From Halostagnicola sp. A-GB9-2 (lineage in GTDB: Archaea; Halobacteriota; Halobacteria; Halobacteriales; Natrialbaceae): 64,000 bases of DNA. The translations under genes and the position numbers were made by a program. Position 1 is the first letter of the stretch; each line of letters starts with the position of its first letter. Shown in pieces: positions 60,944 to 64,000 of the stretch. The notes beneath the pieces were generated by a model that saw only the letters and a program-made list of their open reading frames with translations, did not search any database and was not told the DNA's origin. The stretch lies in contig NZ_JASJOC010000002.1 in NCBI RefSeq assembly GCF_030068615.1, positions 124,001 to 188,000 of the forward strand, given 5' to 3'.

Positions 60944-62467
60944 TTAGGCTGGGATCGCTGACGGAGCGACTGCGGAGCCGAACTGAACGTTTTCGTTCGA
61001 CTGCATGCTCACTTGCGAGGAGGTCGCTTCGCCCCCATCATCGGCAACCGCGAACGCAGCCTGTTGGTTGTTCAGGTTCTCCTGGAAGAGTGACTGGTAC
61101 TGATCGATTTCTGCGTCAGGCTGGTAGGCTGCATCTTGCTTTTGCTCGCCACCAGCGTCCTCGTCGATCGTCAGAATCGGGTTGTCCGATTCGTTGTCAC
61201 CGTCGAGGGAGACGGTCGTTTCTTCGGTGTAGATAACGCCCGGACTCGATCCAGCATCACCTGCTGGCAGTGCCTGTGAGATGCCAACCTGCGCGTTGTG
61301 GTTCTCCTGGTAGGAGAGCTGGATCGCAGTCGCTTCGCTTCCGTTGAGTGCAACTGCGACCGCCGCACTTTGCTGGTTGAGGTTGAGCTGGCTCACGTCC
61401 TGGTACTGGGTGACGCTAGCCTCGGTGTCGTCTTTGTCTTTCTTGTCGTCGTGGGTCTTCTGTTTGTCACTGGCGGTTTCGACGATGTCCGATCCGCCGT
61501 TCGTGTTGGCCGATGCGATGTTCATACCGTCAGTCGAGTCGAGAACGGAGGCCGAGTAGGCGCTTCCGACCTGTTCGTTGATGTTCGACTGATCGGTCGT
61601 CTGGATCGACGTCGCGGTGGATTCGTTGCCGATCGCGATCGCGACCGCGAATCCTTGCTCGTTGACGTTAGCCTGCATGCTCTGCTGGGATTGTTCGAGT
61701 TCCGAACCGGCTACTTGGCTCCCACCGTCAGCATGACTCGGGTTAACGTTCACAGCGTTGGCGACCGCTCCCTGGTAGTTCGAGTTCTGCTGGGAGCTGT
61801 CCTGTATCGCGAGCGCATCACTGCCGTTCTCGGCGATCGAGAAGGCGACGCTTTGTTCGTTGACGTTCGCCTGGTCAACGTTCTGCGCCTGCGTGACCGA
61901 TGCCTGCGAGTACTGGATCTCTTTGTCGTGCTTCTCATCGTGGTCGTTTTTCTCGCCTGCAACCGCCCAGCCGTCGAAGCGCTGGTGATCTTCCTCGCCG
62001 AAGAGGAAGTAGACGTCACCGACGTCTTCGAACTCGACGTTTTGCTCTTCTAGGTACTGGTTCTCGGAGATCGCTTCACCGTCCTGCGTGTTTTCGTTAA
62101 CCTGGCTCGACTCTTGGATGGCGGTCGCCTCGCCACCGTCGATCGAAATCGAAGCCGCGCCTTGCTGGACGTCAACATTCGCCTGGTTCACGTCCTGATA
62201 CTGGACGATTTCGCTAGTCGGATTCACACCTTCGGATTCGGCGTTATCGTCGTCCGAGAGGTGTGCGTCTACGTACTCTTCGAGCGACTGGTCACCGATA
62301 TCCGCACCGAAGACGAAGTAGAGATCTTCTCCGTCCTCGAGCGTGTGTATTGTTCTATCGTCTTCGCCGGGGTCCTCGACTGCGGTCGCCGGGAGTGCGG
62401 CACCCGTCATCGAGAGCGCTAGCATCGCGGCGACGAGAACTGTCGTAAGTTGTGATCGTGATATCAT
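60944..62467 (-). CDS. Secreted Asn/Gln-ladder repeat protein, curlin-like (507 aa)
   Basis: Sec-type signal peptide at 1-~29 (TTVLVAAMLALSMTGAALPA, cut after ATA-V). Five repeats of 40-41 residues lie at 89-128, 193-232, 259-299, 354-393 and 456-495. Each has two copies of Q-x3-Q-x-N-x-[ND]-x-Q-like motifs separated by an alternating A/V/I strand and a G-x-E-A-T turn, e.g. QYQDVNQANVDVQQGAASIS. This is the Asn/Gln ladder style of curlin (CsgA) and other beta-solenoid amyloids, although the spacing differs. Two copies of YF[VL]FG occur at 50-54 and 153-157. The linkers are acidic and His/Lys-containing. No TM anchor or lipobox, so it is released or assembled outside. Function inferred only. 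Confidence 0.82.
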   Translation of the reverse strand: MISRSQLTTVLVAAMLALSMTGAALPATAVEDPGEDDRTIHTLEDGEDLYFVFGADIGDQSLEEYVDAHLSDDDNAESEGVNPTSEIVQYQDVNQANVDVQQGAASISIDGGEATAIQESSQVNENTQDGEAISENQYLEEQNVEFEDVGDVYFLFGEEDHQRFDGWAVAGEKNDHDEKHDKEIQYSQASVTQAQNVDQANVNEQSVAFSIAENGSDALAIQDSSQQNSNYQGAVANAVNVNPSHADGGSQVAGSELEQSQQSMQANVNEQGFAVAIAIGNESTATSIQTTDQSNINEQVGSAYSASVLDSTDGMNIASANTNGGSDIVETASDKQKTHDDKKDKDDTEASVTQYQDVSQLNLNQQSAAVAVALNGSEATAIQLSYQENHNAQVGISQALPAGDAGSSPGVIYTEETTVSLDGDNESDNPILTIDEDAGGEQKQDAAYQPDAEIDQYQSLFQENLNNQQAAFAVADDGGEATSSQVSMQSNENVQFGSAVAPSAIPA

Positions 62468-63190
62468 CGTGTAAGTCGTTTATCGTTTCAAATGCCCTGT
62501 GAGGGTCTTTTCTTACTGCATCTTCGCGGTGCGAACCATCATTTTCCGAATAGTGTCTTTGTTATCTGTAGGTTGTAAGCAAGAACAAGGTCGTTACCGC
62601 TCCGAACGGCCCGTGGGAGTTTTCGAAGGAAGTTACTACCCGCCGAAACTCCCAGACAGGAGGCTATCGATGCGATTCGTCGAACGATTGATCACCGAAA
62701 TGACCCGCTTTCATTCAGGGACTCGAGAACGTAGGCGCCGACATCCACGGGTTGATGAATCACACCGTAGAGGGACAATCAGGGGTAGAGGACCAACATC
62801 GGTTGTAACCGATGTATAACGGATATTACACCGATAGCGAAGCGACACAAGAACGGAGTAGGAGCCTCGTACGGTCCCCAATATGTCGATAGGATGGCCG
62901 TTCCGGCGATAAATGGGCCATACGATGACTAACAACTCGCTGGATAGGTGTAACGTTGATCGAACGAAAACACAATCGGAAATATATCATTGAAACTGTA
63001 ATTCGGGTTAATACGGTCCCTGATTGTCGGGTTCAACCGGGCAACGCGCCGTGGCATCGCTCGGATCGGTCGAGAACCCGCAAGGAACCGCGCGCTCAAT
63101 GTGCTGGTAACGGACCAGACATTCGGTACGCTGGTGACGAACCGGTTTCGGCGGTCCGCGCGTGTAGGCCCGGACGATATCACGAAAACA
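62468..63190. other. 723-bp intergenic region between two divergent secreted-protein genes
   Basis: No convincing gene. It holds a palindrome at 62796-62815 (ACATCGGTT-GT-AACCGATGT) followed by a TATA-like GATGTATAACGGATATTACA. Plus-strand AT-rich AAATATATC lies at 62970-62978, ~215 bp before the 63191 start, so that gene may have a long leader. The minus-strand gene's start is preceded by only moderately AT-rich DNA (about 62480-62500). Its size and the palindrome make it a likely regulatory hub. Confidence 0.5.
62796..62815. promoter_or_regulatory. 9+9 bp palindrome, candidate operator of the fibre-like locus
   Basis: ACATCGGTT (62796-62804) and AACCGATGT (62807-62815) are perfect complements separated by GT, in the divergent promoter region. 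A further GGATATTACACCGAT just downstream may be a degenerate second site. Confidence 0.5.
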
Positions 63191-63763
63191 ATGAAACGTA
63201 CATTCACAGCGCTGATGGTATTCGCAATGATCGGCAGCCTCTTGTTCATGGGGATGGCCGGAACAGCAGCGGCACAGAACGATATTAACGACGTTGACGA
63301 CGAGATTGACAGCGACAATATCGGCGTCGGCGTCGGCGGTGACGGCGGCGACGGTGGAGACGCCACGCACGAAGGACACGATGTCGACGTGAGCACAGGT
63401 CCAGCAATCGTTGACCAGAACCAGGAGGCAACAAACACTAACACCCAGGCAGCGAGCAGTTCCAGTCCTGGTGACAACCCAGCTCACAACAAGCACGGCG
63501 GCGCTGCAGACGGCGGCGTCGACCAAGCTCAGAACGTGAACCAGCAGGTTGATCAGGAGCAGTTCGGCTACGCTGACTCCTCCGCTGAAGTCGGTGACAT
63601 TAGCGGTGACGCCAACGCCGGCGACGGTGGCGACGGCGGCGACGCTAACGTTGACCAGAGCAGTGACAACAGCGTAGATGAAGGTGACACTACTGAGGGT
63701 ATTACCGAAGGCATCATCGCCAGCCTCTCCGACCTCCTCGGTGACGTTCTCGGTTTCCTATAA
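63191..63763 (+). CDS. Secreted Gly/Asp/Gln-rich protein with degenerate Q/N motifs (190 aa)
   Basis: Signal peptide MKRTFTALMVFAMIGSLLFM GMAGTAAAQ with a clear AxA cleavage site at ~28. The mature part contains GVGVGGDGGDGGDATHEGHD, then VDQNQEATNTNTQAASSSSP, VDQAQNVNQQVDQEQFGYAD and GDANAGDGGDGGDANVDQSS. Two stretches are degenerate forms of the Q-x3-[QA]-x-N-x-N-x-Q motif of the divergent neighbour. The C-terminus is a hydrophobic helix (GITEGIIASLSDLLGDVLGFL), not a normal sorting signal. ATG at 63191 with no Shine-Dalgarno. It could be a minor subunit or nucleator of the same fibre. Acidic Gly-Asp repeats could bind Ca2+ or Na+. Confidence 0.75.
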   Translation: MKRTFTALMVFAMIGSLLFMGMAGTAAAQNDINDVDDEIDSDNIGVGVGGDGGDGGDATHEGHDVDVSTGPAIVDQNQEATNTNTQAASSSSPGDNPAHNKHGGAADGGVDQAQNVNQQVDQEQFGYADSSAEVGDISGDANAGDGGDGGDANVDQSSDNSVDEGDTTEGITEGIIASLSDLLGDVLGFL

Positions 63764-63936: not shown

Positions 63937-64000
63937 ATGATACGATCAACAACGAGCGTCGTACTGGTTATTTGCCTACTCCTCGTGATAACCGCTGGCG
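63937..64000 (+). CDS. N-terminus of a further secreted protein (truncated by window)
   Basis: ATG at 63937 opens a frame to the window end: MIRSTTSVVLVICLLLVITA G. It is a signal peptide with a basic N-end and long hydrophobic core, similar in style to the 60944-62467 protein (MISRSQLTTVLVAAMLALSM). AT-rich promoter DNA precedes it (TATAAGATATTCAGATAATATACG, split around 63856-63880, and AATAAAAATG near 63884). Everything after residue 21 is outside the window. Confidence 0.65.
   Translation, partial: MIRSTTSVVLVICLLLVITAG

Follow-up and report, generated by a model that had tools for sequence, protein, structure and literature searches.

The systems catalogued in large surveys of curli and Fap are bacterial (PMC3521004, PMC12822426). 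In the solved structure of FapC, each imperfect repeat forms one layer and conserved Asn and Gln residues hold the core (PMC12392863); the repeat number is fixed, yet the protein forms a fibre (PMC12822426). On the archaeal side, the 2012 curli survey reported one protein whose curli-like repeats are regularly spaced, a possible member of the family described here (PMC3521004), and biofilms of Haloferax volcanii stain for amyloid, no dedicated fibre subunit having been identified there (PMC4180959). We analyzed a window of 64,000 nucleotides from the haloarchaeon Halostagnicola sp. A-GB9-2 (contig NZ_JASJOC010000002.1, positions 124,001 to 188,000), which contains the gene of a secreted five-repeat protein. 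Its closest analogue is FapC of Pseudomonas, to which it has no detectable homology.

The large protein and its ladder of Gln and Asn

The open reading frame at 60944-62467 on the minus strand starts with ATG and encodes a protein of 507 aa, called here the large protein, with the following features:

60944..62467 (-): large five-repeat protein, 507 aa; open frame, homologues in 99/125 genomes, matched by no Pfam or NCBIfam model
62381..62467 (-): signal peptide (residues 1-29) lacking a twin Arg; from sequence and alignment, cleavage point putative
62258..62344 (-): N-terminal element LEDGEDLYFVFGAD...SLEEYV (strand and helix); F53 and G54 invariant in a 49-protein alignment
62066..62212 (-): repeat R1, residues 86-134
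61958..62041 (-): R1-R2 linker element FEDVGDVYFLFG...FDGW; in the 49-protein alignment, G166 is invariant and conservation of W167 is at least 90%
61754..61900 (-): repeat R2, residues 190-238
61553..61702 (-): repeat R3, residues 256-305, with a family-wide one-residue insertion
61271..61417 (-): repeat R4, residues 351-399
60965..61111 (-): repeat R5, residues 453-501

A preliminary description of this DNA, made from its letters, had counted ten motifs of the form Q-x3-Q-x-N-x-[ND]-x-Q in five repeats, and all ten are exact (residues 91/118, 195/222, 261/289, 356/383 and 458/485), compared to 0.006 on average, and never more than 1, in 20,000 shuffles of the 507-aa protein itself. The spacing within pairs is 27, 27, 28, 27 and 27, which bears out the single extra residue reported for the third repeat; the same insertion is found in 75/75 relatives extracted. 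The repeat length of 40-41 residues given there covers the stretch that opens with the first motif and closes with the second, but the conserved unit actually spans 49-50 residues. Gln and Asn make up 27% of the repeats. Net charge is -30 over the 246 residues of the repeats, which are mildly acidic, and -50 over the 226 residues of the linkers, so that the acidity usual at high salt lies mainly outside the repeats. As claimed at the outset, a hydrophobic signal peptide without twin Arg is present and a C-terminal anchor is absent. The N-terminal element LEDGEDLYFVFGAD...SLEEYV, predicted as a strand (48-53) and a helix (62-70), resembles the element between R1 and R2.

Family-wide, the repeat follows the pattern x-V-x-Q-x-Q-x-V-x-Q-x-N-x-N-x-Q-x2-A-x-A-x-A-(turn)-A-x-A-x-Q-x3-Q-x-N-x-N-x-Q-x-G-x-A-x-A, and linkers of about 10 to more than 100 residues separate the repeats. 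The eleven ladder positions average 98% conserved, compared to 46% for other repeat positions (320 repeats, 64 non-redundant proteins), and five repeats with the insertion in R3 only were found in 75/75 extracted proteins. The five-fold count and the 98% are partly a product of selection, because the extraction demanded that five repeats match and that most of the counted positions be ladder-like. An independent alignment of 49 whole proteins and per-genome profile matches agree with the five-fold count and with the conservation of the ladder. That the large protein is simply a low-complexity, Q/N-rich disordered chain with no defined structure, as the 27% of Gln and Asn in its repeats could suggest, is barely credible: this positional conservation contradicts it, as do the confidently predicted strands described below.

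The family is large and undescribed. In the haloarchaeal family of the window, 99 of 125 genomes (26 of 29 genera) encode a full-length homologue, and a class-wide sample adds three other families. Relatives named by a scan of the whole collection belong to Halostagnicola (78% identity), Natrinema, Natrialba, Haloterrigena, Natronorubrum, Natronococcus, Halopiger, Haladaptatus, Halalkalicoccus and Halogranum, and when 393 genomes sampled evenly across the phylum were searched with a single-repeat profile, nothing beyond the window's own family matched. On the bacterial side, the repeat-profile comparison covered, apart from PDB chains, CsgA/B. The initial statement that no described haloarchaeal system is known to be built on this motif agrees with our searches: no Pfam or NCBIfam model covers the repeats, a literature search found no description of the family, and plasmid records annotate the large homologues as hypothetical or PGF-CTERM proteins. 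A viral origin was considered and rejected, no phage match being found.

The small partner and the divergent control region

A gene for a small secreted Q/N-repeat protein, overlooked in the preliminary description, lies upstream of the large gene, in divergent orientation. The features of this side of the locus are:

63191..63763 (+): gene of the small secreted partner (190 aa), divergent from that of the large protein; placed by its position, as in most loci, and by BLAST, which matches it to a congener's small gene
63191..63274 (+): signal peptide MKRTFTALMVFAMIGSLLFMGMAGTAAA of the small protein; from sequence, common to small proteins of other loci
63407..63454 (+): second-type ladder motif DQNQEATNTNTQ of the small protein
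63515..63586 (+): first-type ladder motif DQAQNVNQQVDQEQ of the small protein; order permuted relative to the large protein
62557..62566 (-): GATAACAAAG element, probable promoter or activator site; present in 29/33 intergenic regions
62991..63017 (+): promoter-like element GAAAC-N-GTT..TTCGGGTT-AA of the small gene; from the alignment, function putative
63033..63177 (+): structured 5' leader RNA of the small gene, a long hairpin; fold z -3.3 here

The usual gene order is radB, a gene of unknown function, the large gene, one to several divergent small secreted genes, a larC-like gene and a cdc48-like gene, radB being named by NCBIfam and the last two from sequence. In 60 loci, 58 of 63 small Q/N secreted open reading frames are upstream of and divergent from the large gene (binomial 2e-29 against 25%), and the pairing is kept in Haladaptatus and Halegenticoccus loci although the flanking genes differ. 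Next to large homologues with a Tat signal, a small gene is mostly absent. No export pore or chaperone gene was seen travelling with the pair in the loci compared.

Small proteins measure about 95-260 aa, contain one repeat and share the signal MKRxxxxxxxxMxGSLMFMGFAGTAAA. The repeat profile picks up the small proteins of Haladaptatus, Halogranum and Haloterrigena with values of 1e-8 to 1e-14. In many Natrialbaceae, the window included, the small protein has repeat halves that are swapped in order or degenerate, and it matches the profile weakly or not at all; that of the window fails the profile and is tied to the family by its position, its signal peptide and its relatives. Blocks of the GGDGGDGGDA type flank the ladder motifs (63329-63364 and 63614-63646 in the window) and are common to several genera. 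Beside the small gene, a secreted acidic protein (L002:3941-4477, from window position 63940 past the window end) is found in only one congener among the loci compared.

The two genes are separated by about 680 bp, with a median of 678 bp over loci. About 90 bp upstream of the large gene, GATAACAAAG occurs in 29 of 33 loci, with a conserved stretch that reaches the start codon, and judging from sequence it is probably a promoter or activator site of this gene. The small gene is preceded by a promoter-like GAAACCGTT block and by the leader hairpin, which stops about 13 nt short of the ATG. The fold of this hairpin and its base (GGGC-A-ACGC/GCGUGCC) are kept in most of 22 loci, while its arms vary in length and sequence. 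The fold has a mean z of -2.9 over the 22 loci, compared to -0.5 for 42 control pieces, and the leader has no Rfam match.

Predicted fold and relation to described systems

AlphaFold2, run with 49 sequences, predicts two long strands per repeat, the blocks mostly reaching 80-95 pLDDT and the linkers being disordered. Strand pairs in the large protein span residues 185-213/217-242, 251-279/284-309, 346-374/378-400 and 448-476/480-500. The model has a pTM of 0.56 despite 177 of 507 residues below 50 pLDDT, which argues that the repeats are positioned relative to one another as one body, and the large protein is thus predicted to form a single five-layer beta body. An isolated two-repeat piece, used as a contrast only given its low confidence, was modelled worse (59.2, pTM 0.43), as expected if layers prop up each other. 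In the PDB, the best-ranked matches were two functional amyloids, CsgA (8c50) for the full model and FapC (9u4u, 9nqd), which has a Greek-key cross-beta fold, for the fragment, FapC ranking first and second at E 0.22 and 2.0 with TM about 0.1; none is significant (best E 0.22, TM below 0.2), and Q/N composition may explain part of the ranking. Foldseek against viral models yielded no meaningful match to the large-protein model. Taken together, the conservation, the AlphaFold2 model and the signal peptide support the proposal that this haloarchaeal protein is secreted, is of a predicted stacked-beta type and carries a Gln/Asn ladder under strict conservation.

The AlphaFold2 strand pattern alone is also compatible with a flat antiparallel sheet of five long hairpins exposing a Gln/Asn face, as part of the surface layer or as a binder of sugar, water or ions, and regular polar faces are known in binding sheets. 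We regard this arrangement as improbable, given that the pTM of 0.56 with a disordered third implies one body and that the ladder residues are equally fixed on both strands of every repeat. Cross-strand (antidiagonal) covariation, which would be its mark, gave no clear signal in an alignment that is shallow (effective depth 20). Covariation between layers in register is itself weak at this depth, with mean Z of 0.38-0.51 at offset 0 but 0.36 at +2.

The curlin relationship suggested at first does not hold. Curli (CsgA/CsgB of E. coli; Pontibacter 8c50) share with this locus regular Gln/Asn ladders, major and minor subunits and a long divergent intergenic region, but curlin repeats are about 22 residues long, in tandem without linkers and of the QxGxxN type, whereas those of the large protein are twice as long, at 49-50 residues, with variable linkers. 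PF07012 is not among the matches listed for 49 family members and has none on the window protein; it exceeded the cut-off in 0 of 116 Halobacteria genomes, the E. coli control being positive. The single sub-threshold PF07012 match, in another haloarchaeon, is an unrelated secreted protein. CsgG was found in 0 of 21 relatives' genomes with positive controls, QxGxxN repeats number 0 in the window's large protein versus 5 each in CsgA and CsgB, and hhalign of the family repeat against E. coli CsgA/B repeats gave a probability of 0.3%. These archaea, moreover, have no outer membrane. Despite the Q/N periodicity, the secretion, the two related subunits and the long divergent regulatory region, a divergent member of the curli system is thus very unlikely.

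The Fap-type layout of imperfect repeats of about 50 residues, conserved Asn/Gln and variable linkers is present in the large protein. Like FapC/FapB (PMC12392863, PMC12822426; 9u4u, 9nqd), the family is secreted, with a single imperfect repeat, roughly 50 residues long, in each layer (a layering that is predicted here), a highly conserved Asn/Gln network, surface residues that are not conserved, a nearly fixed repeat number and two related subunits. It differs in having five repeats (75/75) instead of three, the motif Q-x-Q-x3-Q-x-N-x-N-x-Q, single-layer small partners and an archaeal host. Its neighbours are radB, larC-like and cdc48-like genes, among which no gene of a fapA-F operon was noticed. 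The repeat profile had no Fap match to E 10 against all PDB chains. Chaplins of Streptomyces comprise short members of one domain and long members of several domains, of which some have a C-terminal sorting signal, a division reminiscent of the large and small proteins, from which they differ in sequence and length. For 49 members, 25 of 40 families were listed, and the chaplin model is not one of them; nor does it match the window protein. The amyloid-like sheath protein of Methanospirillum hungatei is an archaeal extracellular beta-arch polymer, as is proposed here, but no such repeat ladders are described for it, and it forms cell-sheath hoops with antiparallel strands within sheets (PMC10593813). 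The large-protein family would act like FapC or curli, yet on the features tested it is a member of neither; it appears to be a new archaeal family that uses their stacking principle.

Proposed assembly at the cell surface

We somewhat favor a model in which the large protein would be a secreted beta-arch solenoid and would form, with its single-layer small partners, a two-component surface fibre or functional amyloid. Each repeat of 49-50 residues would make one layer of two long strands with alternate side chains pointing inward, namely Q-Q-V-Q-N-N-Q in the first strand, an Ala zone at the turn and Q-Q-N-N-Q in the second. The five layers would stack through Gln/Asn ladders, presumably parallel and in register, while the acidic flexible linkers would loop outside the solenoid. 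The small proteins, exported by a similar signal, would contribute one layer each, and small and five-layer subunits could add to open solenoid ends at the cell surface, giving a mixed fibre or mesh; stacking of a five-layer solenoid with single-layer subunits is proposed by analogy with FapC, and fibre or amyloid formation by the large protein is plausible. Such a mesh, of the functional amyloid type, may serve aggregation or biofilm at high salt, the large protein possibly acting as nucleator, as stiff core or, in species with PGF-CTERM, as cell anchor.

The main competitor of this model is a five-layer beta-solenoid that does not polymerise. It would work at the surface as an adhesin or scaffold; its N-terminal elements would cap the stack, and the small proteins would be separate molecules that serve as ligands or caps. 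As to export, the window protein would cross the membrane through Sec as an unfolded chain, which fits its signal peptide. Homologues from other families, in contrast, have a Tat-type KRRGYLKG start, and this clade may export an already folded protein, as would suit a closed domain. The fixed repeat number also suits such a domain, caps for it could come from the conserved non-repeat elements that precede R1 and lie in the R1-R2 linker, and some relatives, unlike the window protein, carry a C-terminal PGF-CTERM anchor. A closed monomer, however, makes little sense of single-layer small partners, and FapC, whose repeat number is fixed too, is a fibre (PMC12822426). We consider this reading unlikely, although it deserves some weight.

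Within the fibre model, we put forward only tentatively, at a confidence just short of even, a fuller proposal: an archaeal two-component functional amyloid that would have evolved independently, in which a five-layer Gln/Asn solenoid and single-layer subunits would co-polymerise at the cell surface in near-saturated salt. The charge would sit in the linkers and not in the core, and the two genes would share one divergent control region that includes a structured leader RNA. The large/small family provides a concrete candidate for an amyloid fibre in Natrialbaceae and a few other haloarchaeal families. If the proposal is true, the principle of stacking imperfect repeats through Gln and Asn evolved once more, in a different domain of life, and operates under conditions in which a very acidic surface is a requirement for most soluble proteins. 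The strict alternation of the repeat pattern also offers a clean test case for the sequence rules of beta-arch stacking.

Two further observations concern individual loci. In Haladaptatus salinisoli, five small secreted repeat open reading frames are arranged in tandem (L119:6025-8011). The PGF-CTERM type anchor is present on large homologues at loci L055, L062, L080, L081, L087, L097 and L106, and in some large homologues a K/D-rich stalk precedes it.
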